Shown here: positions 17,925-48,308 of the stretch, one piece after another
Layout of the letters: each line of letters opens with the position of its first letter
How positions within the stretch are numbered: the first letter of the stretch is position 1
Assembly: GCA_021234155.1 (NCBI GenBank)
Contig: JAJEKV010000207.1
Coordinates: 744,001 to 808,000 of the forward strand
Length of the DNA stretch: 64,000 nucleotides
Origin: Isoetes taiwanensis
Lineage: Eukaryota; Streptophyta; Lycopodiopsida; Isoetales; Isoetaceae
Reading direction: 5' to 3'
Notes under the pieces: generated by a model
What the model saw: the letters and a program-made list of their open reading frames with translations, nothing else
The model's database searches: none
Told to the model about the DNA's origin: nothing
Position numbers and translations under genes: made by a program

Positions 17925-18544
17925 AGGGCCTAGGCGCACAGGCGGTACTTTAAGGGGCCTAGAAATATGTATATATTGGGAATTTTCGTTCATATAATAT
18001 TTTCCATAATATTCCATGAACTACTCTCTAGTCTGTTCCTTGTAAGTCAAGATGGGGTCAAACTGGCCTAAGTTGGCCCGATTTGTAAGGAGCTATTTAA
18101 AAAACCAAATCTAATGGTTATTTTGTAAAGCTAATACAAGTCACGTGATATAACCTAATACAACACAGTATACCTGATTGAACATCATATAACCTGATAT
18201 ATCGTATCATTCCAAAATAAAATGAGATTAGAAATGCTCTGGACTTACCTAAAACGTCACCTAGAGGATATCTTTAATGTCCATGAGAGCTTGAGTATTT
18301 TGTCAGGAACTCTCATGTGACAGAGCGCTCATGCTCTCATAGACAATTAGAGACAATAAAAGCATGGCTCTACAGAATTTCAACAAGCCCATGCATGAAA
18401 ACGATCACTCCGACATCACTCGCAGCCACTGAAAGCTCCAATAGTCAATGGCATCAAAGTGATGATCTTCATACATAATCCTTGCTAGCATCACACATGA
18501 TCTCCAAGTCCGTACACTGCAAGCAAATAAAGATAAACCATCAG

Positions 18545-18652
18545 TTGAGCCTAGGGAATTGAACCCTAGCACGATGCCCAGACTCATCCGGGCATAGCAA
18601 AAATCTCAACCCAAGAAATGACCACTATATCCAGGAACCGGAGCCCACTGAT
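18545..18652 (-). other. Replitron-like copy A: conserved hairpin terminal region
   Basis: This segment downstream of ORF2 of copy A matches, in order, the segment downstream of ORF2 of copy C (37922-38027). The plus-strand order is GAGCC, a hairpin CTAGGG-AATTGAA-CCCTAG, CTCATCC, and a closing GAGCCCACT. The hairpin stem differs from copy C by a paired A-T for G-C change while the loop stays alike. A second short stem GCCC(A/G)GA...GGGC surrounds CTCATCC. It is probably the 3' terminal or nicking region of the element. Confidence 0.6.
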
Positions 18653-18832
18653 AGTTCAGGTCTGTTAGTATACATACGAATGTACATATAATAATCATAC
18701 AGTCTATAAACACAAAAATAAAAAATTGTCTTATTCACATTCAACAAATCAGAAAAAGATTCATGTGCTTGACAAGCACTGAAACAACTCCTCCAATCAA
18801 CTTAAGGTTCACAAAAACAACAAGATCAAATA

Positions 18833-19219
18833 TTAATTCATGGGCAGGTCCAACTGCATATGTCTAATCACAGAGTCAACCTGCCGGATGTTTTGGATCA
18901 ATAAAGCCTTGGCAAGCTTCATGTGGGACCTCAAAGTATAAAGTTTAGAAACCGGAGACCTATTTGTTCCCACTCCATGCTAGACATGGCAGAACCTATG
19001 CCTCAACACACGAAGAGAGGCGGCTATCTTATGGGCCTCAGTCTCGATCTGTATCACATTAGAAACAAATTCTTGAGCATAAGACACTTGCTCTAATTCA
19101 GCAAGATAAATACATGAATTGGGATGGAAAGCATCTTTTTCTGAGCTTATAAGAGATGGCGCCAAGCTCAAGACTAGATGACTAACATCACCTTGTGCAT
19201 CTCCATCACTCTCCATCAT
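18833..19219 (-). pseudogene. Replitron-like copy A: ORF2 homologue
   Basis: This is homologous to the 136-residue ORF2 of copy C. Shared stretches include ESDG near the start, AQEFVSNVIQIETEAHKIAASLRVLR, and, after a frameshifting deletion of roughly 26 bases near 18980, HMKLAKALLIQNIRQVDSVI and the C-terminus PMN. Both copies end at the same place. Function is unknown. The conserved part is predicted to be mostly alpha-helical and rich in heptad-like Ala/Leu/Ile spacing. It follows the Rep-type gene by about 100 bases, as in copy C. Confidence 0.7.
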
Positions 19220-19319
19220 AACCCTATAACATAACATGAATTTACAAACAAGAAATACACTGAACAAGAACGAAACTGAAACTCACAAAATGAAACACAA
19301 ACTTTACAAGGAAAATAAA

Positions 19320-19815
19320 TCTAGACAAGCTTAATCAATAGCCAACCTGTGATCATCCATGTGGACTGGAATATAATCCACACCAACCTCCAGAATAAAA
19401 ACATCGGGTTGAAGGAAGGGTCTAGAATATCCTGGAAGTTAACACCTTCTTCGTCACAAGGAATAGAGTCATCCCAATAATGTCTACGACCTGGCACGTT
19501 CCTTTCCATAGGCACAAAGCTTGCAAGTAATCCAAACGATATGGTTCTAATGTCAGAAGGCATACAATGATTGGGATTCAAAAGAACCTTCCCGATAGCT
19601 CTAAGTTGATGCTCATAGAACTAGGCAATGTATACTTCCCAGACCTTATCATCCTGCACAAAGTGTAAGTTAAACTAGCATTAACCTTTCGATTCATGAT
19701 AAAATACAAAGTGAGCAACCTTGTTCAACAAATTCATGTTATCCAACACAACAAAACCTAATTTATTGTCACCTGCACTACACCTTAAGTATAAATCCGT
19801 ATCTTTCTCAATTAT
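19320..19815 (-). pseudogene. Replitron-like copy A: C-terminal part of Rep-type transposase
   Basis: Read on the minus strand from 19815: IEKDTDLYLRCSAGDNKLGF, VVLDNMNLLNKVAHFVFYHE, then after breaks RMIRSGKYTLPSS, LNPNHCMPSDIRTISFG, FVPMERNVPGRRHYWDDSIP. Each matches the transposase of copy C in order. The HUH and YxxK motifs lie in the part missing upstream of 19815, so the copy is 5'-truncated. Stops and at least two frameshifts are present. The last codons of this copy continue past the point where copy C has a stop and end in frame, which shows that the copy C stop is a mutation. Confidence 0.75.
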
Positions 19816-29405: not shown

Positions 29406-29439
29406 GAAATATCCTATCACATAAAATATGCATATTCAT

Positions 29440-29472: not shown

Positions 29473-29476
<4 letters not shown>

Positions 29477-29833: not shown

Positions 29834-29862
29834 GCCCGGCATCGCCGGGCACACGTTTCTAG
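29834..29862 (+). mobile_element. Helitron 3' terminus 2
   Basis: The perfect hairpin GCCCGGC-ATC-GCCGGGC (29834-29850) is followed by ACACGTTT and CTAG (29859-29862), then T. A possible 5' end is the TCTTATAGAGG preceded by A at about 29308, which would give a small element of about 555 bp. That 5' call is weak. Confidence 0.78.
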
Positions 29863-30084
29863 TGAGAATGATTTTGTATGGTTATGCCTATTATATTAAT
29901 GATATTAGATATAAATATTATGTACATGTGGTTTAAAATGCAAACATGTGATGGAAGAAAGACAACGACATATGTCGATTGTCTAGATAGACTTCGTTCA
30001 ACATAATTTGTGCTACATCTATCTTAAATAAATATTAGGTGTAGATTATGGTAGATTTGATTTATGATATCGGGCCGCCGCGAT

Positions 30085-30576
30085 AAATTTCTTGTAGAAT
30101 TAGAAACATTATGAAGATGACATGAGTAATGGACCTTTCCTATATCCTTCATGCAGTATTTCACCATTCCTTCAAAACAATGTTACCTATTATTCTTCAA
30201 AGCTTTACACATCAACACAACAACAGGAGGTTTTGAAGGCGAATTAAACTTTATTTCAATGGCTTCATTCACAGCTTGAGGAGATTTATATCGTGCCTAA
30301 GAACAACCTGACAATAAAGATGATCAACAGAGGCACCCTTCTTAAGGGCAACAACCCCAATCAAACATCTCTTATCATATAAAGAGGACAAGGCATCATA
30401 AAAACTTTGAGGCACGTCTCGGCCTGAAAGTCCAAGAGTCATCGAGACATCAATTGGCCCCCAATCCATTTCTAAATTAGGCTCGGCACAAGAGCCATAT
30501 GTTTGAACAGAACTGAAGACAAGTGAATAGAGCTAGCGACTCCCTTACCTTTCTTTACAACCCTCTTCATAAACAT
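30085..30576 (-). pseudogene. Replitron-like copy B: N-terminal part of Rep-type transposase
   Basis: The ATG at 30576 begins a basic peptide (MKRVVKKG). A 5' splice site AAAG/GTAAGG at 30549/30548 and a TTTAG acceptor at 30472 would remove 77 bases and join it in frame to MDWGPIDVSMTLGLSGRDVP. The Rep motif II reads DHLYCQ, where copy C has DHLHCQ, so one catalytic His is lost. After a frameshift near 30290 the sequence continues YKSPQAVNEAI, KPPVVVLMCKALKNNR, an in-frame stop, HCFEGMVKYCMKDIGKVHY (motif III YxxK at 30147-30158) and CHLHNVS. Similarity ends near 30085. The copy is 3'-truncated and dead. Confidence 0.78.
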
Positions 30577-31150
30577 TTTGACCCAAAAAACACAAGACAA
30601 CGAAAGACAAGGAGAATGCAAGAAGAACAAAAGCTACAACAACAACAATTCCTTCTTTTCCTTCCCATGCAAGCAAGGAAATGCAGGCGCCACCTGCAGA
30701 TGCTGGAAATGGAAACCAAGGGGTTGAAGGACATTTGCAACGCCCCACACAGCATCCAATATCTAGCATTATAACAGGGGTTTTTTTTTCTGTTTTTGTA
30801 CTGTTTTCTCTAAGGTTTTCATATGATTTGGTGGTCGTATTCATCCAGGTGTACTAAATAGTATTTCTAGAGTGCACCCTTTTGTTAGCCGTTGATTTTA
30901 GAAAAGAGGGCAAATCCTGTGGTGGAGGCTTCTTTTGTGGTGGGTGTGAATATCCTCCCATTATTTTTAGGGGTTTTTTTTTAGGGTTGTGTGGAGGCCA
31001 TAATCGAGGGCATTTGGTTACGAGCTTCAAATCCCCTTTCTGAACTTGGCTGCCGGATGCATCCCAATTTTAAAAACATCATGCAGCAATATCCGCAATC
31101 TATACTGCAAGTGGGATATGCACGCCATATCTGGATGTGGTTTACTTCTG

Positions 31151-31741
31151 CTACTGTAAGCATCTCGGCCGCAGCTCTAGTTCTTGTTTTGCATTAGTAC
31201 GTGAATCAAAAAAATGGAAGCCTTTTATATTTTTCCTAGTATTCGTCCTAACTATCATGTAGACAGCATAGGAAAAATCGACTTCAGTTGTATTGGGTGG
31301 AGAAATTGTTGAACCGGTCAAAGAGTTGTGGGAAACATCGAATCTGCCAAGTTCTGTAAGGCCAGAAAAGTTTGTTGGAATGGATCCTGCGAGCCTATTG
31401 TGGCCAACAAAGAATTGCTTCAAATTGGCAGCTGCCATGCCCGCAGGAATTCTCCCTGTAAGTTGGTTAAAACCCAAATCCAGATCATCCAGATTAGGGA
31501 AGGAAACATTTGGAATTGGGCCAGAGAAGTTGTTTCTCCGAAGCCAAAGCTGGGCAAGCAACGACATGCCTTCTAGAAACGAAATATTACCCACAAATGC
31601 ATTATTGGAGAGAGTGAGATTTTGCATAGAGCTGAGATTGACCAAGGAAGCAGAAATTTTCCCATCTAGTTTGTTAGCATGAAGCCACAACCTTGTTAAG
31701 TTCTTCAGATTTCCAAGCTCTGCCGGAGATGAGAAGCTCAT
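31151..31741 (-). pseudogene. Leucine-rich-repeat protein fragment
   Basis: The open frame encodes about six plant-type LRRs of the LxxLxLxxNxLxGxIP form: LGNLKNLTRLWLHANKLDGK, LSSMQNLTLSNNAFVGNI, LLAQLWLRRNNFSGPIP, LDDLDLGFNQLTGRIP, LKQFFVGHNRLAGSIP and LGRFDVSHNSLTGS, up to residue about 155. A non-LRR tail follows. There is no signal peptide, N-terminal cap, membrane segment or kinase domain nearby, so it is an exon-sized piece of an extracellular LRR protein (receptor kinase or receptor-like protein). It may be a captured gene fragment. The frame itself is intact over 196 codons, so decay is recent or it is an unrecognised exon. Confidence 0.7.
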
Positions 31742-31799
31742 GGTCTTCAGCGCCTGTCTGACTTTGGCATAGGTAGGGGGGAGGGGGGATTATGCTCGA

Positions 31800-33870
31800 G
31801 TGGTATGCGTTGCACCACAACGGAATTCAGGACTCCTGAAGAAGCATCACAACATTGGAATGCTCAATATACAGAACAAGCTTAGCATATACAATTAAGG
31901 TAAAATACATCAGCCATTTTAGTTACGGAAGGGACTGTAGAGATGTGCAGGGAATGATTTGAAGCAATTCTCCAAGTTGTTAGGTCGTATAGGGATGTTG
32001 CAGGCTGGAAGAATAAAATTCTCTGCATTTACGTCATCCTTTTGCATCTTCTTAAAACATTATAAAGCCAACGCCTTGTCGATTTTGGGTATATCTTACA
32101 ATTATTGGATTTCAGGATACTGCATTTCTAGTGGGTAAAATATCAGAATACTTTGGTTGCCTCTTTTAGGACTTTTGGGGTTTGCATGCTGATCTTACTA
32201 GAAAACACGCATATTTGTAAGTATCTCGTTGATTCCCTTGCATAGGTGCAAAGAATATTGCCAACAAATATCTGGGACATTAATTATTTTATGGCACAGC
32301 AAGATTTATAGTTTATAATAAACAACCTTTTTTTGCCTTTAAGACATATTGTTGGATAGTTTACACATCAATGATACTGAGCTGACCATTTAGCATGCAG
32401 GTTTTTGTCATATTCTTTGACTTACTGCACATTGAGATGAATCGTCTTGCTTCCTAATGCAGTCTTTGTAAGTTATGTGGATGCTGGCCTTGTTAAAGCT
32501 ATCTTCACCAAAAAACAGAAAATACATAATTCTCTTTTTATTTCGGCCAAGAATTTGATCCATTCCTTCACAATCATATTTATGGATTGCAATTGAAAAT
32601 TCTGATATGGAGTTCCTCCATGTAATTCATGCTGAGGAGTGGGAACGCCTTCTTTGTTCGACTCCCCACCGACTTGGCATCAAATCTGGGCCTCCAATTG
32701 GAGCATTCAACAGTGGGATATAATGTCATGTCAGCAGGAGGCCTAATGCTGGACACAGAAGTTGCGGCATTCATGCAAGAATGCAAAAATCCAATTTGGC
32801 GTCAGTTTTACTAAAGGAGGAGCCATTATAGAATGTTGGAGCAAGCAGATGGTATTTGGTGAGTGTTTGGAGCTGTACGGCCAACTGGGCATTCAATGCT
32901 ATTATAATGGCTATTTCTTTTATGTGGCATTGCAATCTTGGCAGCTCGGGGATGATTTTAAATCATATATTGTTTTAATGCTACATATTGGATGCTAATG
33001 CCGGTTATGGTTGCCATTTCTTTTGTATTGATGCTCTCTCTTTGTGGAATTAAATTTGTTTTACATATGCCATATGCTTATGAATGCTTGCCATGGCAAA
33101 ACAGGCTTGCATTGACACCAGCACATGTTACCATATGCACTAGCATATGCATGACAATGTGCAGTTTACAATAGTTTACATGATTCTTGTATTGCAATAT
33201 TGAAATTACAGATAATGAATATAATGACTACATTTAAAATCCTATGTTTGCTTTTTAGTAATTAATATTTAGGCCCATAAAGTTTACCTATGTTTGCTTT
33301 AGTTAGGGCCCGAAGGGCCCAAAAATTTTCTTAATATAACAATCAACACACAACTACCATTAACATTATTAACACAAACCATTGCATTTAACAAATTTAA
33401 ATTAAAATCCCCCTTAAACCCCCTTTGGTTTGGGTGTATATTCACACGGGGGGTTACATAGGGCAGCGAGAGCTCCAAAAATATATTTACAATACATGTA
33501 CAAAATTAACACACCATTAAGTACATTCTCTCAAACCTTATAGTATTTTGCATGGTATATTTCTACGGTTTGTTCTCGAGGGCACCTCTCCAAAGTATTA
33601 AAAATAAATACAACCTTTGGACAAATATAAGAAAATGGCCTTAAAAGCGTGACAAATGATAAGCCTAAGTACTACGTGTCCAATGTCCATAAAGCAAACA
33701 GAAATCTTTAGAAAATATTTTAGAGGAATCTTGGCTTTTTACCCAAATATTTTCCTTTTATCATGTATTATTATATCTAAAATTATATAATTGCTATAAT
33801 GGACAAAACCCTAAAATTTTAGGAGAGGGTTTAAGCTCTGCGCATCCTAGAAAAAAAGGAAAAGAGCAGA
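31800..33870. other. Unassigned stretch upstream of the RRP15-like gene
   Basis: No gene is supportable; frames are short. A small open frame at 32629-32814 has no recognisable motif. The last 300 bases would hold the RRP15-like promoter. A-rich GCATCCTAG followed by an A run precedes the start codon by about 20-30 bases. Confidence 0.35.
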
Positions 33871-33875
33871 ATAGA

Positions 33876-36865
33876 ATGATGAGTGTAGAAGAAGATGGTT
33901 ATTCAGCCGGAGAAGAGAACGATGGCAGCGAAAATGAAAATGTTAGTTGTAGCGGAAGTGATGAAGATTCGGCTGCTGGATTGCGCATGCCATCTGCATA
34001 CAGTCGAGCTTTTGGGAAAATTATGGACAAATCCATCCCCCATTCTTCTGTTACAGATACCATGGTAACCCTTGAGTCAATTCCAAATGGTTACGCCCTA
34101 TCCTTTCGGCTCAGTTTATTTTTCTGGTGCAGGGACCGGTGTTGGCAGCTCGTAAAAATCTCGTGATTAAAAAGCTAGAAGCAGATGCTATTGACAAAAA
34201 ATCCAAGTCGGAAAGTGCATCTTCAAAACGGGAGGTATTTCATATAACCATGCTCAGTTGAGAAAATTCTATTCAAATAACCGTGTGGTGTGAGAAGCAG
34301 TGCACTCCCTTTTCTCGTTTCAAATCTTACTAAGAAAAATAGGGAGTGCCCTGTGTGAAAAGAAAAAGTAAAATTTTGTTTTAAAATAAATTGTTTCATA
34401 GGCTCTGAAATGTGTTTTAAACTTTGGTATGCAATCGTACATGTCTGGCAATTTCAGTGCATGAAATTTGCCTTTTGAAACTAATAGCAATAATTAAATG
34501 TTACTGTACACATCAAGCCCAAGATCAAGGAGCTCCTGTGTCAGTCCAATTGGTGAACTCTACCTATGCCTTTCAGACAATGAGATTTTGTTTTGAAGTA
34601 GACTCCAGCATGCATGCCCCTATTGCAAGATCGGTGTACTGGAGCATGAATACTTTGTTTAACATCAACATTGTTTGCACAAGTTCTGGCCAAAGGGGTA
34701 GTAGTAACTGCTGGACTTCGTATCTCCCTTTCTTGACAAGTATTCTTTCCATGTTAATTGCATAATTGACAGGAGGCATTGCACAATAAGTTCCACCAAT
34801 ATTTTGTTAGAACTGTTAGAAACTCTGTTTGTTACGCTAGACTTACATCATTCTAACAATGGCATTAACGTAGGACTTAATATTTTGTCAAGAACTACAA
34901 TTCAATATCGCTCAGCTGCTCCCCAACCACATGATTAAGTTCCGAACTTCATTTCTGTCAGTAGTTGCAGTTTAAGACGGTTCATTGTGTCAAGACAATG
35001 CCTTGAAAATTTAAGAAGAAATTGGTGCTCAAAATATTCAACAGCGAAGGCTGGCCAAAACTACTTAACTCGAGACTGTGTAGGAGTAAAAACGTTTTCT
35101 AGCTATTTTGTTAATGCATTATTGCAGAAAGAGTGCACTTGTTTTTAAGGCGTTTGACATTTGAGCAATAGCATAATATCTTTTTAATGCAAGAATAGGG
35201 ACAATGAAAAGCGATTGGGTCAGAGAGTAATCTGTAACATTAGGTGCATGAAACTATACTAGATGGTGAACTTCGTGCAAAGTGTACTGCTTAGGTGATC
35301 TGCGAATGTTCTAATTTTATTGGGCCATCAGCTTAACTAAACTTGGCACGTGCCTGTTGTTAACTGTTACTATATGAATGCTTAATACCTAGTTATATTT
35401 GTCTATGGAACTGTGGAAGAAGTTATTCATTGCAATGTGGAAGAAGTTGTTCGTTGCAATGTTTGAGATAGCTTTTTTGTGCTTGGCAACCAGCAAATTC
35501 TTTGAACGAGTAGACTCTGTTTGGAGCTAAGCACATTCAGGAGTCTTATACAAAGGGTTTACAACTCTTTTGATTGTTACCCAGCAACTTGGTTCCATGA
35601 ACTATAAGTTTCTATTGAGCTAGAAGTTTGATTATAGTGCCACAATAGTGTACATAAATGTAAGATCATGCTACTTATGCATTCTGCCTTTGTTGTGCAA
35701 GTTACTAAGACAAAAGTTCCATCCTTTTATGTTCAGTTTATACTCATGCACAACGCTGTATTTGTGCATTTTAGATCCGGGAGAAAGCATACACGATACC
35801 AAAGTCTTATCGTGATTCAAAAGAGATTGATCTTGTCAAAGTGGCTACAAAGGGAGGTTAGTATATTTTTTGTCTTCATTTTTAGCTTGTTAAAGATCTG
35901 GAGGATCCTTTGACACATGATTATTTTTTTCCTGCAGTGGTAATACTCTTTAATGCAGTAAGTTTCTAGTTCTTGGTGTACTGTCTTGATAAAAGTATTT
36001 TTTCTCATAGTGTTCTTTCTGCTTCCAGGTAAATAAAGCCCAAAAGATTCAAACTGATAATAGATCGCTCAAGTCATCTGAAGCTAAAGGTTTGTCCATG
36101 ATGCATTCATTTGACACGTATCTTTTAGACAACATATCCAACAGAGACTGGCATGTTTAATATTCAGAGGCTGTGAAGAAAAGAAAAGCAGCATTTTTAT
36201 CAGAAATAAGAGGAGTCTCTAAGGCTGGTACATTGGGAAATCAAGCGAAGAAGCACCAGGTAACATATGTTATTCAGTTTTAGACTAATATGTAACACTA
36301 ATGGCTGGGTGTCTGCCAAACAAGTCAACAAATACTGGGAAGAGCAAAAAGTGCTGTTTAATACGCGTGCATAGTATTGGGTAGTTGGTTAGGTAATTGC
36401 TACCAGTTTGAATTTTAGCTAGTCCTCTTGAGAAAAATGAAATTACTTTATCAGAAGCATTTTTAAGGATATTATGAAAGAGCAATGATCGTTTTTCGCA
36501 TACTAAGGATGTACGAAAATGTCAAGATGAAAGGATGACGGTGTACTCATGTGTTAAGCATTAAGGGGAATTGTGTTCTTTGTGGAGCAAGGACCATCAT
36601 TCTGATTGTTACAAAGGGTTTGTTCTATTTAATAGAGTGTAGATGATGACGAGCCTGGCTGGTCGGTTTTGCAAGATTCATTCATGCTGGGAAAAGCCAG
36701 TTTGAAAGACTGGGATAAGAAAGTGGTAAGCATTAAGTTTCCGGTATAATTGGGTTTCTGTTTTGTCTTTGTTTTCATTATACCCTTTTGTTTCAGGATG
36801 TTGGTTTGGACTCGCATCAGAATTTTGAGGACTCTGAATCAGATGACTCAAGCTCGGAAGGATGA
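33876..36865 (+). CDS. RRP15: RRP15-like ribosomal RNA processing protein
   Basis: An eight-exon gene read by hand: 33876-34064, 34133-34234, 35775-35856, 35938-35957, 36029-36089, 36168-36259, 36636-36725, 36797-36865. Every intron is GT-AG and the phases agree, giving about 234 residues and a TGA stop. The N-terminus is acidic (EEDGYSAGEENDGSENENV), then AYSRAFGKIMDKSIP, VLAARKNLVIKKLEADAIDK, IREKAYTIPKSYRDSKEIDL, VVILFNAVNKAQKIQ, and a C-terminal GWSVLQDSFMLGKASLKDWD with an acidic Ser-rich tail. These are hallmarks of the Rrp15p family, nucleolar proteins needed for 60S ribosomal subunit assembly and pre-rRNA processing. Exon 4 is only 20 bases long. Two ATGs stand in tandem; the first was taken. 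No lesion was found, so this is probably the one functional host gene here. Confidence 0.88.
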
Positions 36866-36869
36866 GTTT

Positions 36870-37920
36870 GACATTCATTATTTGGCTTTCAACAATTTAT
36901 TCTGACGATTTTAATCTGGATCCTTCCTTGTATGGAGGGAGACTGCATAATGTCAAGGCTGCAATGCAGTTAGACAGTTCCACTGCAGGGAAGTACTGAT
37001 TACAGCACGTGAAGACCAACCTATGCTGTTTTCTCCTTGCAGTTGCTATTATTGAATGTTAATGAACTCTTAGCACCATAAAATTGGGAGAAACTGAATC
37101 CATGTACCATATGATGGCTTAATGTGAAAAAATACTAAATCTGTTATGTTAGAGCACTGAACTGTGCAAATATGTGGCTACGCATATCAATATGATATGC
37201 TTTCCAAAACTGTAAACATGCAGGGGCTATTTAATGGCCATAATTGACTGGCTTTATCAGGGGTCAAACTCTCATAACTGCTGCCTTTTGCTCTCTTGGA
37301 AATCTGTATAAGAATCATGACCACCATATATGTTGATATGGCCATTAATTTCTTTAGTTTGGATTGTCCATATTTTGTTTGTAATAGAGATGGGCATTTG
37401 GGTACACAACAGCATGGCCATTAATTTCTTTAGTTTGGATTTTCCATATTTTGCATGTAGCACATTTGGAGAGTTTGGTACATAGAGCTTTGTGAGTGAT
37501 GATTTGGAGCTTTGTGAGTGATGATTTGCAGATTTGGAGATTTTGGTGCATAGAGCTTTGTGAGAGATTTGGTGGTGATGCTAGCATTTTATGGCATCGC
37601 ATTTGACATCACATGTTGGCATATGTCATCTCATTATGTTGGCATATGTCATCTCATTGGAGATGGATTTATTGAATTTAACAAGGAATATAACATTTAG
37701 AACCTTATTTGGGGTGTATTATCATTTGGGGTGTCCAATAATGTTTTGGGACCATTCGATCCAAGCATATGCCACAGCATATGCCACGCCATCAAATTCC
37801 AGCCCTCAAATGGAGGTCAAGATAGGGTCAAATCCCCTATATTTGACTTACCCCTATCAGCCAAGCAAACCATTGAATAAATACAATCTTTGAAATTTGA
37901 AAGTTTGGCCAAACGAACAA
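36870..37920. other. Unassigned stretch downstream of the RRP15-like gene
   Basis: This covers the 3' UTR and intergenic sequence. It contains short direct repeats: GCCATTAATTTCTTTAGTTT at about 37341 and 37413, and GAGCTTTGTGAGTGATGATT at about 37486 and 37507. No gene is supported. Confidence 0.4.
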
Positions 37921-37921
37921 T

Positions 37922-38027
37922 GAGCCTGGGGAGTCGAACCCCAGTGTAAGTTCCGACGCTCATCCAAGCATACTAGGTATCCCACAAGAGGGATGCCTAG
38001 TATGCTTAGGGGCCGAAGCCCACTAAC
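37922..38027 (-). other. Replitron-like copy C: conserved hairpin terminal region
   Basis: The plus-strand order is GAGC, a hairpin CTGGGG-AGTCGAA-CCCCAG (37926-37944), CTCATCC, then an 18 bp stem-loop (37966-37983 against 37990-38007, loop ACAAGA, one G-T pair), then GGCCGAAGCCCACTAAC. The first hairpin and both flanks are also in copy A at 18545-18652; the large stem-loop is specific to this copy. Read on the minus strand it follows ORF2, so it probably marks the 3' end of the element. The first hairpin imitates a tRNA T-arm, but no tRNA is present. Confidence 0.6.
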
Positions 38028-38053
38028 AAAGCAAACAGGTCAGTACCAGCACA

Positions 38054-38262
38054 TCATTTCAATACACAATTCTGTTACATCATTTTAATACACAATTCTG
38101 TTAACCAATTGCAGCTTGCTCAAACTTATTGAACACGTTACTTACAAGCATTTACCACAACCAATTTCACACATTTTAATACACACTTCTGTTAACCAAT
38201 TGCAGCCTGCTCAAACTTATTGAACATGTTACTTACAAGCATTTACCACAACCAATTTCACA
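38054..38262. repeat. 91 bp tandem repeat in the Replitron-like 3' region
   Basis: Units 38081-38171 and 38172-38262 are nearly identical, and a partial unit (CATTTCAATACACAATTCTG) precedes them at 38054. The array lies between ORF2 and the hairpin region of copy C and is not seen in copy A. Confidence 0.85.
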
Positions 38263-38300
38263 CACAAAATCACAAGCCAACAGAAGAACATGTAAAAAAA

Positions 38301-38711
38301 TCAGTTCATAGCCGAGCCACTTTGCGCATGCCTAATGACTGCATCTAGTTGCCATATTTCTTGCACAAGCAATACCCTCGCAAGGCTCATATGAGAGCAC
38401 AAGATGTGCAACTCAGAAACGGGCACCCCCAAATGCTCCCACTCCACAAGAGATATGGCATTGTCAATTGACACATAGAACCCTCTAAGCTGCCGCCTAA
38501 GCAAGCGCAACGATGCCGCAATCCTATGCGCCTCAGTTCCAACCTGGATAACACTATTCACGAACTCCTGAGCAGAAAATGCTGCCTCAGGCTCAGCCGA
38601 AAACACAACAGGGTCCGGATGGGATGCCTCTACAGCAGACGAAATAAAAGACTCAGGCAAAGACACAACAGGTTGCTCCACGCCGGCAACTGCTTCCCCA
38701 TCAGTCTCCAT
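38301..38711 (-). CDS. Replitron-like copy C: ORF2, conserved protein of unknown function
   Basis: An intact frame of 136 codons (start METDGEAVAG, end GSAMN). It begins 74 bases after the ancestral end of the Rep-type gene on the same strand, too close for a separate promoter of the usual kind, so it may be a second cistron, a downstream exon or a separately initiated transcript. Residues 1-55 are acidic and low in order. Residues 45-130 (AQEFVNSVIQVGTEAHRI, ASLRLLRRQLRGFYVSIDNA, HMSLARVLLVQEIWQLDAVI) look helical, with Leu/Ala/Ile spacing suited to oligomerisation. Copy A keeps a homologue, so it belongs to the element and is not a chance frame. I recognise no known domain. Confidence 0.7.
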   Translation of the reverse strand: METDGEAVAGVEQPVVSLPESFISSAVEASHPDPVVFSAEPEAAFSAQEFVNSVIQVGTEAHRIAASLRLLRRQLRGFYVSIDNAISLVEWEHLGVPVSELHILCSHMSLARVLLVQEIWQLDAVIRHAQSGSAMN

Positions 38712-38784
38712 AACTCTTGCAACTAAAAAGAAACAAAACTATGAAAACAAACCCAACTGTACAATGAAGAGCCAACCAAGTTCA

Positions 38785-39806
38785 TCACCCAACAGCCACG
38801 GTATGATCACCTTGTGCAACGGGGATGTAATCTACACCAGGCTAAAGTATCACAACATCATCACTGTCTCCACTATAAGAAGCATCATGAATATCCTCGA
38901 AGTTATTATCTTGTTCATCAACAGGAATAGCATCATCCCAATACCGCCTCCTCTCAGGCCCATTCCTTTCCACAGGTACAAAACCTGCTGGCAGGCCCAA
39001 CAAGATGGTTCTCATATCCGATGGCATGCAGTGACTAGGATTGAGCAGGACTCTCCATGCAGCCCGGACACAGTGCTCATTGATATGGGCAGTGTTAGAA
39101 GGGATAATCCAAGAACTAGACAAGGTAAATTTTCCAGAACGAATCATCCTGGCCAGCGTATACAACAAACTAGCAGTCAATCTACGGTTCCCATGGTAAT
39201 TCACAAAATATGCAGCTCGATTCAACAAGTTTTGGTTATCAAGCACAACTAAATTTTTCGTATCACCAGCTCCCCATCTCAAATACAAATCCTTACCTTT
39301 CTCGATGGCAGCCTCACTCACATTATGAAGATGGCAGACATAATGAACTTTTCCCACATCCTTCATACAGTACCCAATGATACCCTCAAAACAATGAAGA
39401 CGAGTATTTTTAAGGGCTTTGCATACCAATATCACACCAGGAGGCTTAGAAACCCAATTGAAATCTTTTTTTATGGCATCATTCATGGCCCTAGGACTCT
39501 TGAACCGGGTTGTAAAGACAACCTGACAATGCAAATGATCTACAGTAGCACCACGCTCCATGGCCACAGCTCCAGCAACACACCTCCGATTGCAAAACCC
39601 CACAAGACCATCATAAAAACTCATGGGCACATCTTGCCCAGACAGACCTAAGGTAACACTCACATCTATGGCATTCCAGTCCTGCTCAACAGAAAAACCA
39701 CTATATCTTGGGAATTGGAAGAACTCAGGTTTATAATGTGGCTCAGAGAACCAGGGACAGAGCAACCAACACTCTTCCCCTTTCTCGCTGCCCTCTTCAG
39801 AGACAT
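38785..39806 (-). pseudogene. Replitron-like copy C: Rep (HUH, Y1) transposase
   Basis: A 307-codon frame (39765-38842) carries the three Rep motifs in order. Motif I is VSVTLGLSG (residues 35-43), motif II is VDHLHCQVVF with the HUH histidines at residues 77 and 79 (codons 39537 and 39531), and motif III is GYCMKD with Tyr 132 and Lys 135 (codon 39372). A long C-terminal domain follows (RMIRSGKFTLSSS, NPSHCMPSD, RRRYWDDAIPVDEQ). There is one catalytic Tyr and no helicase, which fits Replitrons and not Helitrons. In-frame sequence conserved with copy A continues past the stop at 38842 for about 18 codons, so that stop is a nonsense change. A basic peptide MSLKRAARKGK starts at the ATG at 39806 in another frame; copy B suggests a short intron there. 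Otherwise the frame is undamaged, so the copy is young. Confidence 0.8.
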
Positions 39807-40197
39807 GTGGCCGAAATTTAGAGACAAAAACAAAGGGAAGAGCACAGCCGGCTTACCTCGGGCACAAATCCCCTTTGAGAAGACTCCACCTCGGCTCCCC
39901 ACCAAGCAACCCGACCCCTGCTTATCCAAAACCCCAAAAAAGAAATAAGCCCAGAGCCAGGACACATGAGAACCTCCGCCCTCAGCATCTCCGCCATCCC
40001 TGGAGCACACCACGGCGGCACTACCAGTTCCGGCCAACCGGGCAAAAGATGCTCGGCCTACATTCCAGGGTTTCGAATCCCCACTGCCACCATACTCACA
40101 TACGAATACTTGTACACACCATTAAAAACCTTAGGTTACAAACATACGATTCCAAATTTCGGCCATATTATTGAGGTGATTTAACTTCTAATATTTT

Positions 40198-42020
40198 AAT
40201 TATTTAACGATAATTGTAAGGCTATATTTACATACTTATACCAAAATTATATGGCCTTAATAGTTCATCATTATCACTCATATATAATTCAGTCTCTTTT
40301 TTTGTTTCACACTATTTGTTTGAAGCTTAATTTGTTTGAAGCATCCTGGTGGTGACACGTATGTGCTAAAATTTTAAGGGAAAGAATGCTTTGGATTTTT
40401 TGAACTCCATCTAAAGCATTCAACGGTCGCCTGTTTACTTGGCCCAGAAGGCACCGTCGAAAGGCCCTAATTGCCCTCTTTACTCTGTTTCGGCTTACTT
40501 TATTCCGGCTTCTCCAAACCTGAAAACCGCGGCCCTTAAAAGAACCATGGCCCAAGATGGATTTTGATTCCAAAAAGCAGGCGCTATGTTTCTTCGAGAA
40601 GAGCGGCTTGAAACTGAAACAACGGCTGTCGTGTTCCAGAGCAGCTGGATCGAAACTACATTCCCCTACAAATTCGGTCTGCGACCATAGCTAAGGTCTG
40701 CGATAGCTCCAGATGATGAATCCCGTCGCCAGTATGGCTCTTGCATTTTGATTACTGTGTAGACCATAGCTAAGGTCTGCTCTTATGCCACATTTTCTTT
40801 TATCAAGAAATACTAGTACCCTAGCCATATCTCATAGTCTCAACCATGCGAGAAAAGTCGTCCCACAATATGAAATGCAATTAATCTTTTCTACCAGGCC
40901 ACACTTTATACATATACCATGGAACTTGATCAACATGTGTTTGTAATGTGAATATGAGCTATCAAGCATACTTTAGTTTTGGGTTAATGCCCACACGAAG
41001 ATGCAACTCAAATTTATGTGCAGCCAAAATTTGCGCGGCAACGCCGGGCATACATTTACTAGTATGCCCTATATAGTAATAATATGTGTTATTTGGTGTA
41101 TGATTGTGGTTTTCTATTAGTATGTGGTTTACAAAGTTAGAAGGCTAACATATATGTGGTATTTTATGTTGCAGATGGTGGAAAACTTGTAAAGAAATGG
41201 AGGGCAATAGGATTGGTGGCTGCAAGCAAATGAGGATAGAAAGAGTGATGTGAATAGAAAGATTGAGTTGATGGAGCATAAAACATCAGAAATTAGAGTT
41301 GATTTGTACAGATGGTAGTTAATCATGACGATAAATCCAAATGCAAGGGTGTTTGGGTCGTAAGTGAACTGAAGAATGAAGAGCTAAATAGTACAGTATT
41401 GTATGGTCTAAGTCTATTGAATAAGGAACTAGCAGAAATTGAAATTGAACTAAGGGCATGTTAAGCCGTACCTCTGGCGCTGCAACCTCAAGTGCAAAGA
41501 TTTGAGATTTTTTTGAACATAGTGGCCATGACACTCCTTTAGATCTCGCACTCGCAATGCTTCCTAAAGCGGAAGAAACGGGTGATGAAGGTTGTTCCTA
41601 TTGTGGACGGTGCTTAAAATGGGAGGTTAAATTGTTCCTAGTTGTCATAACAGAATGCAATCACCAGTATCACATTCCATGCTTGGCACAAAATCTGTAT
41701 TGTTATCTCTAACCTTGTTCACAACATTTATTGATGTTGCATTTGCTCTGCAGGCATTCTAGAACTTGTTGCAGCCCTAGTTGTGCCCATATGATGTCTA
41801 AGATATGGCTCTTATCTTTTGGTATTCGAGTGATACCATAGGAACCAAGGAATGCAAGTAAGTAACTTAACTAATGTTTCTAGTGCTGCCAGAGGTCTAC
41901 TGACATAGTGATTGCAAAACTGAGACCACGAAAACTCAACTCCTTGCCACACCTTGATCAATACGAGACTGCAAGATACCACCTGAGTGCAAATATCATT
42001 GAGTCTATTGGACCATAGTT
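40198..42020. other. Unassigned stretch holding a Helitron end
   Basis: No gene is supported. A minus-strand frame at 40573-40307 (start MESKSILGHGSF) is basic and of unknown identity. The stretch contains the Helitron terminus at 41033-41062. TAGACCATAGCTAAGGTCTG-like words occur at about 40681 and 40759. Confidence 0.35.
41033..41062 (+). mobile_element. Helitron 3' terminus 3
   Basis: GCGCGGC-AAC-GCCGGGC (41033-41049, one mismatch in a 7 bp stem) is followed by ATACATTTA and CTAG (41059-41062), then T. It is closely alike in sequence to the other three termini in the window, so it is the same family or a close one. The 5' end was not placed. Confidence 0.72.
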
Positions 42021-42082
42021 GGGGCCGACCTAGGTCGGCCCTAAATCCCGAGCTGTTCCGACCTAGGTCGGAGTCGGACTAA
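42019..42082. repeat. Perfect palindromes built on CCGACCTAGGTCGG
   Basis: GGGCCGACCTAGGTCGGCCC (42023-42042 region) is a perfect 20 bp palindrome, and TCCGACCTAGGTCGGA (about 42058-42073) is a perfect 16 bp palindrome. They are followed by AATCCGACCTTGGGTCG, a degenerate third copy. The spacing of about 35 bases and GC-richness differ from the surroundings. It could be the subterminal repeat region of a DNA transposon such as hAT, or a protein-binding array. Confidence 0.65.
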
Positions 42083-42319
42083 TCCGACCTTGGGTCGATT
42101 GGGTCATAAAAGCCAAATTTTTTTTTCCCCCCTTTCGATTGACAGACTCTGTGGGCGTAAAAACTGCTGGAACAGGCGATTTTGGAGCAAAATGGACGCT
42201 ACCAAGTCCGCTCCTGAGTCTGTTTTATGCAAGAACGGCCAAACCATAGCTGAATCTTGGTCGGGTAAGCTTGCTGTCATGTTTTTTTCTCTGTTTCTAA
42301 CCTAAACTGCAATCGCAGA

Positions 42320-42676
42320 ATGCTCTGCTAGCTCCCATCCCAGCTTTTCCTTCTGCTGCATTTGGCAACTCCTTCAGCCCACAATCTCCACTTTAACCAA
42401 AGAGCTTTGCTGCAAGCATCCAAAGGTAAGCCTACTTTAATTTTTAGTCTATATGGGTTTAGAGTTTTCTGACATTTTGCATTGGCACTGCAGCTTGCTC
42501 TGTGAGTTTTGCAAAGGAGGATTTTTCTTCAGTTATCAGCGTTTGCAAGGGGCCCAAGTATGAGAGCAATTTGTGCTGCCCTGCATACACTAAACTGGCA
42601 TGCAAATACAAAGCTGAGGTGAACGACTTCTCAAGCACATGCCCTGTCGATTTCCTTGCACGTCTTAACTATGCAG
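42320..42676 (+). pseudogene. LORELEI-like GPI-anchored protein fragment
   Basis: Two exons can be joined. Exon 1 (42320-42425) encodes a hydrophobic, signal-peptide-like stretch QLFLLLHLATPSA and then RALLQASK, with donor AAAG/GTAAGC. Exon 2 (42494-42676) gives ACSVSFAKEDFSSVISV, CKGPKYESNLCCPAYTKLAC, then YKAEVNDFSSTC. This is the Cys pattern of LORELEI/LLG proteins (CKGPKYPxxxCCxAFxxFACPYxxxLNDxxxxC), small GPI-anchored chaperones and co-receptors of FERONIA-type kinases. The ATG at 42320 is followed by a TAG three codons later, and the expected next exon and GPI signal were not found. It is therefore a fragment or pseudogene. It lies between two Helitron 3' ends, so capture is possible. 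Confidence 0.72.
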
Positions 42677-42929
42677 GTAACTAGTAGTCAATCATCTTCA
42701 ATCATTCTTATGCTTATCTTCAATCATTCTTATGTCATTTCTTATCTGCTACTGCAGTAAAGATCAGAGCTTGGCTGGCAGACTCCAAGTTCATAGCAGC
42801 AAGGCATCGATAGTCTGTCATTTTGCTTCTCCTTCAGGTATTCAAGCTCACATCAAACTCTTTGATGGCTTCCAATCCAAGTTCAGAAATCCCTTAGGTC
42901 TGTACTTAGGTCTGTTCTAAGAGCTACTA

Positions 42930-44654
42930 TTATATAGTAAGAGATCTGTTCGTCTGCTGTAACAGGTGTTGTCCAAGCATAGCAGATGATGGTCTTCGGA
43001 TTACAAAGCATGGACTAAATCCCAGGTTCTTATTTGATTACTCTGTATTTCATGGAGCCTCAGCATATATTCTCTTCTTCAGGGGCCAGATGGAAATAAA
43101 TAGTGACAGATTATTCAATGACAGATGGAAATAAATAGTGACAGATTATTCAATGACAGATTTTTCAATGGTTGACATATTATTCATAGGACTTAGTGTA
43201 TAATTCATAGAAGGTAATTCATGAGGGGGATTATTACAAAGGAAATATGTCTTAGGGCGAAATCACACTTACGCCCAAGTCCAAACAAATAAAAAATTGG
43301 AAAGGCACCCATCGGGCACTGTCCAACACAACCCTATCATACTAGAGCCCGTCCAAACCAAAAAATAAATAAATAAATAAATAGAATTTAAATAGCCAAG
43401 ATTTGAATTCAATGGGCAAGATCATCTTGTGTCCACATGGCAAGAAAATAATGTATACCAAAAGTTTAGACAAGCAATATTGCCCGCCCAAAACTTTAAT
43501 GCATGTCAAAAGCCACGCCATACTTTAGGCAGCATGGTGTGATACGTTGGGTGCTTCTTTTGTCCACACAGCAAGTTATTATTAGCCTATGCCAAAATAT
43601 TTTGGGTTTGGGCAGAAATCTGATTCGAGCCTTATTAGCCCCTCTTTCTTCCTGCAAAAATAGAAGAGCAGTTTGTGTCTGCTTATGTTTTAGACAAATG
43701 TTTGGTCATAAATCCCTATTTTCTGTTTAAAAATGTGTCTATATAAGTATTACAGACCCTTTAAAAAATAGTATGAGAATTTGATGTCATTCCTTTACAC
43801 AATTGCGAAGTCTCTGGTACCAAAGCAGCATGTCTCAAATTTTAGAGGTGAGAAAACTTAGCACAAGTTTGGCCAAATATCCTTGCCTATATAAGGAGTG
43901 AAGGCCAATCTAAAAAGCTACATGTTTCAACATTTTAAAGTGAGAAACTTTGCAAAATTGTACGAGCAGAGATATCCCGAGTCCTAATTTCATAACGTGT
44001 ACCTTTTGCTAACTTCAGACCACCACTTAGAGAAACCAAATAATAAGTTTACTTCATAGTAATTTTACTTCATGGTTATAGAATAACTAGCCACAATAAA
44101 CAACAATATCATAATGAGAAAGAGAGCATTGTTCCTCCAGTATTGTAATCTAATGATCCTTCAACAAATTCAACTCTCAATAAGCAACTCTATGTGTGTG
44201 TGTGTGTGTGTGTGTTTTTTTCTTGAAGGACGTCAAACTATATTGAAAGTCCAAGCCAAAAGACGGATACAACTGTATAGGCGGGATTAAAATCTAAGAG
44301 GGATCCACTGAGTAGGACCACCAGCCTATGCATAAAACAATGCACTCAAATAAGTCTCAAAGATCAACTGACGCTTCGCAAGAGCAAGCGAAGAGCAGTG
44401 GTAGGCCTTAGCAATTCTATATTGATCGTCCTGGAGGACAATTGTGTGTGTTGTGGTAATGCTAACGTTCTTTATAAAGCATTGTATTCTCTGTTGAAAC
44501 ACATCCTTTAAACGCAAAGCTAATACATTGATGATACTATTAACAATAAAAATAATTAGAAAAGCAAATCATGTCCACTCTTGCAAGCATTATGTTTTGC
44601 TGTTGTCAGAAGTTGCACACGTCTACGTTAAAGGCAGCTAAAAGCAGTGAAGCC
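42930..44654. other. Unassigned stretch with simple repeats
   Basis: A 35 bp tandem repeat of two units lies at 43087-43156 (CAGATGGAAATAAATAGTGA at each start), an (AATA)n stretch near 43361-43381, and a (TG)n microsatellite at about 44192-44214. The minus-strand frame at 44517-44326 shows no recognised motif. Confidence 0.45.
44192..44214 (+). repeat. (TG)n microsatellite
   Basis: About 11 uninterrupted TG units, followed by a T run. Confidence 0.9.
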
Positions 44655-44665
44655 CAGGCATTGGC

Positions 44666-44693
44666 ACAGCAACACCGGGCACATGTTTACTAG
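44666..44693 (+). mobile_element. Helitron 3' terminus 4 (degenerate hairpin)
   Basis: GCACAGC-AAC-ACCGGGC is the same 17 base motif as the other termini with damaged pairing. It is followed by ACATGTTTA and CTAG (44690-44693), then T. The conserved spacing and end make it a Helitron terminus despite the weak stem. Confidence 0.65.
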
Positions 44694-45248
44694 TTTTTCG
44701 TGAAAATCTTCTTTATATTTTACACCCTGGAGAAGCTGCTTTTGCTTGTCAAAGTTGGTTTCTCAAATGCATTGCCATGAACATTTCTGTTGCAAAAAGC
44801 AGAAAATCTGCTTTGAATTTTCCGATGGTTCCTTCCCAGACACATCAGCTATGTCATGTACATGCAATGGTTTTGTATTTTTTTTTTCTAACACGTATTT
44901 TTATACATATTAGGGCAGCTTCACACTGGCCGTTATAATGCCATTAGGTTAAAAAACTTTAGCTTAACTGTGCTTCACATTGACTTCTGTTAAAAGATTC
45001 CATTAAGATTATGCGGTTAAAAATTGACACTGTATAATAGGGGTTCACACTGTATTTCGTTAGGTTAAATTTCGGCTAATCCAAGAGTTGGCTTGTTGGG
45101 TTTTCTGCCATAGCCTTGATCTCAGAGCTCTACCCACTCAAATCCGATACTCGAATCTGGTAATCAATTCCGGCCTCTTGTGGGAGATTGGGGTTGATTA
45201 ATGAGGAGGACAGCGGGTCCGTGATGCAGATTTTTTTATAATTTATTC

Positions 45249-46394
45249 ATGACTTTCTTAAATAATGTGTATGTGTTTCATGCAGCAGCTGTTCCTGCAC
45301 GAGATTGTGATAAAGAAAGCCATGGCCTGGCAAGCTTCGAGCTATATAAGAACTATATAGGGGGGATGCCCATTGGCTGCGCATTTTTTAGCATTTCAAT
45401 GGCTGAGTTTGTACAACATTGCTTGAAAGTTCATGCAGACTGGCTCAGAGTACAAAATATTTTGTACAACAAACATATTTTTTGGAGTGATGGTTGCACA
45501 GCACAGTTCAAAGGAGCAAGACCTTTTTGGTATTTAGGAAGGAACTATGTCAATAGTGAAGGAATTGAGTATGAATGGAATTTTTTTGCCAGCTCTCATG
45601 GGAAAGGAGAACATGATGGACAAGGTGCAATCCTAAAAAGGATTTTGGCAAGAGAACAATTGAAGTATGATTCCTGGAAATTGGAGCGTGCCAAAGACGT
45701 TGTGGATTTCATGAATTGGTATATGATGAACAACCCACCAGACCCAAATATAAGAAGGTAAATTCAATCAGTACCATTGCATTCTTCTTCATTTGAGGTG
45801 ACATTTTTCTGTTCTATATTGCAGGTTTTTTTGGCATATTGAACCCGAAAATGTAGACAAATCTGAAAAGAGGGAATGGAGATCACTTTGTGGGAGCTCT
45901 AAACTTCATTCCATCAGACCATGTGACAAAACAAATCCTGCAAAAGTTGCCCACAGGTGCCTCTCTTTTGTTTCTGTCCTTTTTGCTTTCATGGAAAATG
46001 GGATGATTGCATGAACAAAGCTCGATTGGGAGCTTGGTCCACAAATGAACTGAAGTTGAAGAAATCTACGAGAAAACAATCACCAACAAAAGCGGTTCAA
46101 GATGAAGATGAGGATGATGATGAAGAAGAGAATGATGATGAGGCTAATGAATACCTCAGTTCTGTTCTAGAAGTTGGAGATAACTTTGCTGTAAATGCAG
46201 ATCCAGAGGATGATGAAGGAGTTGACTTTTATGTTCTTAGGTGTACAGAGACTAAAAATACATTGTTAGATGCATATGAAGACTCATGGGGTTCTGCATT
46301 TGGTGTGGGAGAAGTCATAGTTTCTGGCCACTACTACAAGCAGACAGATGCACTCCACTTTGAGTTATTAGTGGACAAGCAGTTGCCTAGTTAG
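45249..46394 (+). pseudogene. Transposase-like gene of unassigned superfamily
   Basis: Exon 1 (to 45757) contains FWSDGCTAQFKGARPFWYLG and, further on, NFFASSHGKGEHDGQGAILK. This pair of motifs (SDGxxxQFK and SHGKGxxDGxGxxxKR) occurs in a widespread group of transposon-derived proteins with candidate acidic active-site residues; I cannot name the superfamily. The intron 45758-45824 is GT-AG. Exon 2 reads FFWHIEPENVDKSEKREWRS and TNPAKVAHR. A frame change near 45955-45975 leads to CFCPFCFHGKWDDCMN, a Cys-rich motif, then an acidic stretch (EDEDDDEEENDDE) and a BAH-like segment (VGDNFAV ... YEDSWGSAFGVGEVIVSGHY). The start and 5' exons were not found. It is either a decayed element or a domesticated gene with an unrecognised small intron. 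Confidence 0.6.
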
Positions 46395-46399
46395 TGTGT

Positions 46400-47301
46400 A
46401 GGTCACCTTATTAGACAAGTGAAATTTGATATGGAGAGTCTTGGCAACAACAAGTTCAAGATGAGTGAAGAGACATGCCAAAAGTGATGGCATCCCTTCC
46501 TCAGGACCGCTAACATCGCTGGACCGCTTTTTTTCGCTTCTTCTTGAAGAGGCGAAGCACATCATTCACATGTAAAGTGGCTCATTCATTGCTACATTGT
46601 TTCTAACAAACCTATTGTTTCTAACAAACCTATCAATGGAAGCTAACAAATTCTTTTGTTGCACATAAATTTGTAGTCCCGACCGACTTGATCAATGTAA
46701 TCTGCTAGCTTTGGTGCTTTATTCTTTTTACGCTTTTGTCTGCCGGCGTGCTAATTGTTTTCGAGTTTATGCTTAACATGCGTCGTCCCTTCAGGTTTGG
46801 TCCTTGGAAACAAATGGTGGAAACTTTACGCAAGTGTTCAATTGGGGATTTGCTCAAGACAATGCACAAAGTAAATACTCTTAAACCTTTTTACATGCAT
46901 ATGTTCAAAGATTGGCTTCATATACAGGTTTGTTTGTTTAACCATTACATTCAAATATAAACTGGGACAACAATTTTGCAAGTAGAAACTCTGCAAGTGC
47001 AGGTAAATATTATATTCATTAGATACAAAATTGTTACAATATATGTACAAAGCCTGTACAACTCACTTGTCATCTTTATTCTGGGTTACATACTGAGGCT
47101 AAGTTACATAAATATTGAAAAGAGTCTATAGACTCTTATTCTCCTTCTGTGAGAATTTCTGTTGCTGCATCACTTGAAGTGCCGGTATCAGCAATAAGAG
47201 TAGTATCTTGTGTTTTATCTTCTCTTGCATGCTCTTCATCCTGTTCATTGACAAAATCAGTATTATTACCTGCAGGATTGTTATTATTATCTTCATGTAC
47301 T
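46400..47301. other. Unassigned stretch
   Basis: Just downstream of the transposase-like frame a further open piece reads HLIRQVKFDMESLG (46404-46450), so the original protein probably extended beyond the stop at 46392. A plus-strand frame near 46736-46960 has no recognised motif. Confidence 0.4.
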
Positions 47302-48308
47302 TTATCTCCCTTTTTGCATCAGTATGTTTATACTTATATCATCTATCAAGCCTTGTAGCTTAGACATCTCCTGGCTACCAACTTGTACTTCTGTTTCTAT
47401 TTTCTCCAAAACATGCTCCTTGTGAACCTGTTGCTTATCTGTTTCTATGTTGCTATCATTTTTATTATGAGTGATGCGCCCAGTAGTTACCTCAATTGCT
47501 TCCTCGAGCCTTTGCAACTTCTAGGTTACATCAAACCAAGTAATTCAAATCAAACAACATACAAAAAATGCAACTAAATGAATTGAAAGCAATGACATTA
47601 CAAACAATCACTTCAATAGCATAACAACACAACTAAATGAAATTAAACAACATACCTTAACAATTTCCTTCATTAACTGAATGCTTTTGAGAATAGCCAC
47701 TTTCCACCTCGCTAGCTCATTTAGATGTTCAGCCAGAAGCCTAAGTATGTCGATGTCCTCTTCTTGAACTTTATCTTCAACATACTGCTCGTGCAACCAC
47801 TTTTGAGGATTCTTGGCATTGAGCCAAGTTTGCAGAAATGCAGCTAAGAAATTGAAACCTTTGTCATTGATGTCATTATCAAATTTTTCAATTATGAAGC
47901 AAGTGTCTTGTGGGGACAAGAAAGTCTTGTACAATGAGTCATCAACTAGCACTAGCTCCCCTACATCCTCAAAAGCCTCATACACTTTTACAATTGGCTT
48001 CATAAGCACTGGCTTGTTCGGATTCCCTGGAAAATTGAAAGGCATCACCTCGCACTCTTTCTGACCCCAAATGAACTTGAACCTTCCTATAAAGGAAGGT
48101 GGCACTATAACATTTAGGATTTCTATGATGTTGTGCTTCATCATAGAAGACCATATGGCTACCTCAAACCGCAAAGCACCCTTCTAAAAACTTTATCGAT
48201 ACGGTGCGCACACCACCACTTTCCCCGCATAATGCTTCTTCAGCTTTCTGTTTTGAATTTTAATTACGGTTCTTTTTGGAATGTGCTCACCAGAACTCCA
48301 TTTAAGTC
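47302..48308 (-). pseudogene. FCP1/NIF-like (HAD) phosphatase-domain protein
   Basis: The minus strand carries the plant NIF-like phosphatase domain. It has motif I LVILDLNGVL (DLNGVL at 48308-48291), then HIPKRTVIKIQNRK, KVVVCAPYR, FEVAIWSSMMKHNIIEILN, FIWGQKECEV, NPNKPVLMKP, and the acidic motif LVLVDDSLYKTFL (Asp-Asp near 47943-47938). An intron (47655-47521, GT-AG, in phase) leads to a last exon, KLQRLEEAIEV to LMQKGR, with a stop at 47302; this tail looks like a coiled coil. The family acts as CTD-type or related protein Ser/Thr phosphatases. Two in-frame stops (48195-48193 and 48186-48184) and a frameshift just after motif I show a pseudogene. Upstream, 48900-48560 in the same strand is Glu/Arg-rich, as in the N-termini of plant members. 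Confidence 0.75.

Follow-up and report, generated by a model that had tools for sequence, protein, structure and literature searches.

Which mobile element does a HUH-type Rep gene in the lycophyte Isoetes taiwanensis belong to, and in what condition is it? The gene lies on the minus strand of the window, the whole stretch of 64,000 nucleotides analysed here (C223:744001-808000 of the genome searched). A first-pass annotation had proposed a Replitron-family element encoding a Rep with one tyrosine and no helicase. Replitrons, reportedly described by Craig in 2023, have a Y1-type Rep domain next to a further domain and are said to be abundant in non-seed plants. Our reading, with a probability of roughly 0.93, is that the element, named copy C, died recently and belongs to a Replitron family present in many copies, and that its relatives carry Rep, an accessory protein and a 3′ structure. 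Its features, together with those of a second, split copy in the window, are collected in Table 1.

Table 1. Features of copy C and of the split copy AB (positions in the window)
Feature	Position	Strand	Basis or remark
Probable Replitron copy C, 2467 bp	37707..40173	-	blastn against 20 relatives; ends good to a few bases
5′ end ATAATATGGCCGAAATTTG, mostly ATAATGTGGCC in relatives; contains ATAAT	40153..40171	-	5′ member of direct repeat
Rep/transposase gene as read in relatives (~345 aa)	38785..39806	-	interrupted in copy C
Open Rep frame of copy C, P0001, 307 aa	38842..39765	-	ORF
HUH motif His77-Leu78-His79	39529..39537	-	HLH in 25/25 relatives L009-L033
Y132-C-M-K135 (YxxK), predicted catalytic tyrosine	39361..39372	-	YxxK in 25/25 relatives L009-L033
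Premature TAG of copy C	38842..38844	-	relatives read through
Second gene of 136 aa, not assigned to a family	38301..38711	-	38711-38304, stop to 38301; downstream of Rep
Tandem pair of a 91-bp unit, 97% alike	38081..38262	-	between second gene and structured module
Structured module	37921..38021	-	covariation and covariance model matches
3′ end GACACCCCAAATGATAATACACCCCAAAT; contains GATAAT	37707..37735	-	3′ member of direct repeat
Copy AB, 5′ half (A): broken Rep start to ~residue 153	30093..30576	-	tblastn
Copy AB, 3′ half (B): Rep from residue 154 on	18538..19812	-	tblastn
Second gene in B, broken	18836-19216	-	inside copy AB 3′ half
Structured module in B	within 18538-18675	-	inside copy AB 3′ half

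Family assignment and condition of Rep

Searching Pfam with P0001 we found that residues 36-161 match PF21859 (Replitron_HUH) with E=1.8e-19 and 70.8 bits against a cut-off of 28.5, the sole significant Pfam family in the Rep of copy C. The reversed P0001 sequence gave zero matches at E<=10, so the Rep match lies above chance. Replitron_HUH is matched at E<=1 by all 20 members of alignment A7, including one 60-aa fragment that scores below the cut-off. The C-terminal profile PF21860 (Replitron_C) is collinear in copy C and weak (E=0.051, under the cut-off); 16 of the 20 A7 members reach E<=1, the best with 0.0029. The first-pass assignment is borne out by this search, which returned Replitron_HUH as best match, no viral Rep family and, for the Rep of copy C, no Helitron family at E<=10. 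The description as a single-tyrosine, helicase-free protein agrees as well: the one tyrosine sits in the YxxK motif, and with Pfam neither Rep, nor the second ORF, nor any A7 member gave a helicase family.

The best PHROGs match (E 0.0029) was to a family of unknown function and is not convincing; NCBIfam gave no match to Rep, and the PDB no convincing relative (best E 0.14 with the P0001 sequence and 0.36 with the profile). Searches of the protein collection, of viral contigs with exact peptide patterns and of prokaryote genome contigs brought up no relative. AlphaFold2 models built from window-only alignments had mean pLDDT values of 32.7 and 35.0, too poor for use in fold assignment; the HUH fold of Rep is predicted from the profile match. 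The order of the motifs, HxH and then YxxK, is also that of CRESS-DNA virus Reps, and on this ground the gene might be what is left of an endogenised CRESS-type ssDNA virus or plasmid Rep. We consider such an origin very improbable: Pfam returned no viral Rep family, the PDB profile search no Rep, the viral contigs no relative (exact peptide patterns) and none of the searches a helicase family, whereas more than 100 copies with shared ends and a second gene are transposon-like.

DHLHCQ (residues 76-81, with H77 and H79) and GYCMKD (residues 131-136, with Y132 and K135) are located in the minus-strand ORF 38842-39765. The span 38785-39806 had been presented as one frame, which does not hold for copy C, where it joins two: the ATG at 39806 begins MSLKRAARKGK..., the remainder is out of phase, and the frame stops at the TAG at 38842-38844, ahead of the TGA at 38785. 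In the relatives one frame of ~345 aa encodes Rep; it starts with MSLKRAARKGK or a similar sequence and ends in ...MAVG. Since 12 of the 20 fetched relatives are open across both sites, copy C carries an N-terminal frameshift and a nonsense codon. The earlier impression of a nearly intact minus-strand frame is thus right for the ORF holding both motifs, but has to be amended for the frameshifted N terminus and the TAG. Judged from its sequence, copy C is broken though nearly complete.

For two further pieces, A and B, the earlier reading has to be corrected: tblastn places A on residues 25-153 (30478-30093) and B on residues 154-298 (19812-19408), on the same strand, in order and without overlap, i.e. 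as collinear halves of one Rep. A and B are read as one older copy, AB, apparently split by ~10.3 kb of inserted DNA. The identity of the A/B pieces to C is 47-79%, their synonymous sites are close to saturation, and copy A reads HLY, a Tyr replacing the second HUH His. TAATT occurs near both junctions of the insert (19813-30092), where a clean target site duplication (TSD) was not found; the insert carries its own repeats. A 77-nt candidate in copy A was considered as an N-terminal intron common to A and C and rejected: the frame of the relatives is uninterrupted, which leaves a frameshift in C. Pieces of a Copia-type retrotransposon (RVT_2, gag_pre-integrs, rve) lie at 2229-4609 on the minus strand.

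Copy number, termini and junctions

Searched with Rep as query, the genome (1110 contigs, 1,658,258,908 bases) gave at least 130 matches, among them that of the window itself and a piece of 21 residues. Of 4700 first-look candidates 129 were scored, which makes the count a lower bound. Most matches are ~78-94% identical, a second group ~68-75%, and many of them are stop-free. Rep is open from start Met to end in 12 of the 20 fetched relatives; these were picked among the best-scoring matches, so the proportion is not a genome-wide fraction. Scanning all three sense frames of L009-L033 with a loose motif pattern, we found both HLH and YxxK in each of the 25 relatives. The partial loci L034-L038, which served only for ends and the two Rep motifs, have HLH in four of five and YxxK in one of five. 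For the Rep of copy C, dN/dS was calculated against seven family-1 relatives over 284 codons. The nearest, L011, differs by few changes (dS 0.028, dN 0.030, dN/dS 1.09), and the other six gave dS 0.068-0.62 with dN/dS 0.09-0.36, suggesting that Rep has been mostly under purifying selection. That the element is young, as had been claimed, fits the dS of 0.028 to its nearest relative but not the dS of 0.068-0.62 to the other six.

The ends of the element were placed with blastn. Similarity of copy C to its relatives begins at 40170-40174 in 14 of 20 and ends at 37705-37711 in eight and at 37716-37727 in six more; the 3′ end of copy C is possibly off by one short repeat unit. At the 5′ end the sequence is (N)ATAATGTGGCC(G/A)AAATTTGG or nearly so, and unrelated DNA precedes it. 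At the 3′ end it is GACACCCCAAATGATAAT, to which a second ACACCCCAAATGATAAT unit, whole or partial, is often added; there are exceptions. A GACACC motif near the 3′ end is found 173-221 bp past the start of the T-arm motif described below (nine copies measured). A short direct repeat occurs at or near the termini, ATAAT at the 5′ and GATAAT at the 3′ side, with L012, L023, L024, L026 and L027 among the exceptions; inverted repeat pairs of >=30 bp were not found within 30000-48000. The units measure 2.4-3.1 kb (n=11, copy C included). In L038, CCCCAAAT-GATAAT of one element abuts GTGGCC of the next, a head-to-tail junction sharing one GATAAT, as expected if the end repeat is the joining site. 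The high copy number and the head-to-tail junction agree with the copy-and-paste transposition predicted for the element.

At the chosen ends a TSD of >=4 bp was seen in one of 11 copies compared with 15% of mismatched pairs, and TSDs are therefore not above chance at these ends, the 3′ one being uncertain by a repeat unit. Replitron TSDs are given as 2-8 bp in a review (PMC10741241).

The 5′-terminal motif ATAATGTGGCC(G/A)AAAT is repeated internally, between the second gene and the first hairpin, in eight of 14 copies examined (L010, L013, L015, L018, L021, L024, L025 and L028); in C, L009, L011, L014, L016 and L019 it was not found in the interval between second gene and module. In L037, a 124-bp fragment of a Replitron 5′ end was seen inside another copy at ~850-975, where the Rep gene is partly missing. 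Three other candidates for termini were discarded. A T-arm-like stretch at 40069-40082 turned out to be internal, with the 5′ end ~90 bp away; the sequence at 41067/40972, at first taken for a terminal repeat, resembles a Helitron end; and the structured module, a candidate 3′ terminus when B and C alone were compared, is followed by DNA in which the relatives stay similar to C until ~37707. A tRNA-like sequence lies on the plus strand at 39990-40082, opposite in strand to the Replitron in whose 5′ part it lies (GTTTCGAATCCC preceded by tRNA-like sequence), and the 5′ parts of the relatives align across it.

Helitrons have a Rep fused to a helicase and two tyrosines. They share the HUH nuclease and its mechanism with the element described here, and motifs resembling Helitron termini lie nearby, so that copy C could be a Helitron (RepHel) fragment in which the HUH part remains and the helicase was lost or is located elsewhere. 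To this we attach next to no credence, less even than to a viral origin: the relatives are small units of 2.4-3.1 kb with ATAAT/GATAAT ends and a Rep of ~345 aa, no helicase family was found, the one tyrosine stands in a YxxK motif, and the best family is Replitron_HUH, with no Helitron family at E<=10.

The Helitron-like terminus motifs, for example CTAGTAAATGTATGCCCGGCGTTGCC and GTGTGCCCGGCGATGCCGGGCA, are located at 41037-41062, 29833-29854 and 28906-28925, all on the minus strand. A similar Helitron-like sequence flanks L028 on its 3′ side.

A second gene and a folded module

The second gene was matched by tblastn in 20 of 20 family-1 relatives and in five of five cluster-2 loci (44-72% identity by piece, L031 partial), hence in all 25 relatives searched, and in copy B (46% identity). 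Residues 1-136 are uninterrupted in eight of 21 family-1 copies, C included, of which L011 and L018 are without ATG; in the other 13 the gene is interrupted or incomplete. Across the 21 pairs of seven uninterrupted family-1 copies dN/dS is 0.12-0.69, with 15 pairs at 0.15-0.4, and C differs from B by pN 0.30 and pS 0.78, which is saturated. Pfam, PHROGs, NCBIfam and the PDB gave nothing convincing for this protein.

The module further downstream has three parts: a hairpin with a UUCG loop, a long hairpin made up of 19 pairs, and a T-arm-like hairpin (TGGGG-TTCGACT-CCCCA in copy C) enclosed by a 5-bp stem. The downstream DNA of C aligned with that of B with a score of 67, compared with a mean of 33.3 and a maximum of 49 in 500 shuffles. 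Comparing just B and C, we found 97.0% of the pair cells kept versus 32-49% when slid, and five pairs changed on both sides, a number reached by 13 of 500 shuffles. A covariance model built from these two copies reached >=82 bits in 21 of 26 sources, with 22 matches, two of them the B and C copies themselves, all on the Rep strand. The five sources below 82 bits, with weak or absent modules, are L010, L017, L025, L029 and L031; weaker matches of the model on the opposite strand mostly comprise just the near-palindromic long hairpin.

We then examined covariation in a MAFFT alignment of 23 copies, which was not fitted to the structure and includes the partly deleted or poorly aligned L021 and L029. 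In this alignment 95.3% of cells pair versus 32-49% slid, 26 cells have changed on both sides versus 6.9 in shuffles (0 of 500), and eight pairs have changed on both sides versus 4.4 (6 of 500); these controls flatter the module, since the structure was taken from C and the copies are kin. The loops keep their letters: UUCG occurs in 17 of 23 rows, and all 22 rows that have letters in the T-loop read TTCRAYT. Read on the sense strand, the wobble positions comprise 51 G.T versus 18 A.C cells (45 versus 13 without L021 and L029), and this excess makes the sense strand the likely folding strand, as the sequences suggest.

No tRNA was found in the module by ARAGORN, and no tRNA family in Rfam. Rfam returned weak matches of the T-arm-like hairpin to mascRNA and tmRNA as well as miRNA-like hairpin matches, all far below gathering. 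The module shares its T-arm-like hairpin with tmRNA and with the mascRNA of MALAT1, but differs from both in lacking a full tRNA fold and in its upstream hairpins. Elsewhere in the window, hairpins at 50232-50380 and 54290-54454 scored below gathering against the miRNA families mir-4796 and MIR821; they are perhaps MITE-like inverted repeats. A tRNA-derived SINE-like sequence was seen at 17714-17785 on the minus strand, with an A-box-like TAGCTCACTGGTTAGA and a B box GGTTCGAATCCC.

Instead of being working parts, the module and the second ORF could both be hitchhikers: the one a tRNA-derived SINE, for instance, and the other a gene captured from the host, fixed together in one ancestor. The likeness of the T-arm-like hairpin to a tRNA B box, the tRNA-like SINE pieces in the window, the interrupted or incomplete state of the second gene in 13 of 21 family-1 copies and its dN/dS of up to 0.69 in some pairs would all agree with this. 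We nevertheless think it unlikely: both parts have been kept despite saturated synonymous divergence, the module has acquired compensatory changes, and its hairpins are not a tRNA according to ARAGORN and Rfam. A different question is whether the module acts as RNA instead of as a DNA signal, i.e. as a tRNA-like 3′ element for tRNA-processing enzymes that would set the 3′ end or the stability of the transcript. Its RNA-like UUCG and TTCRAYT loops, the wobble bias of the sense strand and the weak Rfam likeness of the T-arm to mascRNA and tmRNA are in line with such a role, whereas those matches lie far below gathering. The transferred DNA strand may also be the sense strand, so the wobble bias does not separate the two readings; we regard the action as RNA as quite possible, if short of probable.

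A possible course of transposition and relation to known systems

HUH enzymes generally nick a strand, form a 5′ phosphotyrosine link, displace the strand, cut a second time and join the ends. We infer all catalysis, and the roles of the second gene and the module, for this Replitron as follows. Rep, whose two His would hold a metal, would nick the sense strand where the ATAAT/GATAAT end repeat lies, and its Tyr would become linked to the 5′ end of the nicked strand. The strand would then be displaced through host replication, and a second cut at the 3′ repeat would allow joining to a new site while the donor stays in place. The folded module may be a single-stranded DNA signal for Rep to end the transfer, comparable to the hairpin near the Helitron 3′ end (PMC4778049), or the 3′ portion of the transcript may carry it as an RNA signal; the second protein may be an accessory of Rep. 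Tentatively, and with somewhat less confidence than in an action of the module as RNA, we propose a two-gene Replitron lineage that requires both the accessory protein and the tRNA-like folded 3′ element. The latter would be a partial tRNA mimic, formed by the transcript or the transferred strand of the element and read by Rep, by the accessory protein or by host tRNA enzymes, and would end the transfer or process RNA.

Measured by the criteria of the Replitron review (PMC10741241), the family agrees with Replitrons in its HUH profile, its single Tyr and the lack of a detected helicase, and likewise in having short end repeats, no long inverted repeats found, a size within 0.9-4 kb and a non-seed plant as host; a lycophyte falls within the Replitron host range of green algae and non-seed plants. 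It differs in that TSDs are not above chance here and in that the C-terminal profile is weakly matched. The second conserved gene and the covarying module may be further differences from Replitrons. With Helitrons the family shares a hairpin near the 3′ end (PMC4778049) and, with many of their plant members, the possession of an added gene.

As a group of eukaryotic HUH transposons, Replitrons were described only recently. This plant genome has over 100 detectable copies, many of them with an open Rep, and so offers for direct testing concrete termini, a junction of two elements joined head to tail, and two additional conserved parts. If the module or the second protein is needed, the family would show by what means a helicase-free HUH transposase with a single tyrosine recognises its ends.
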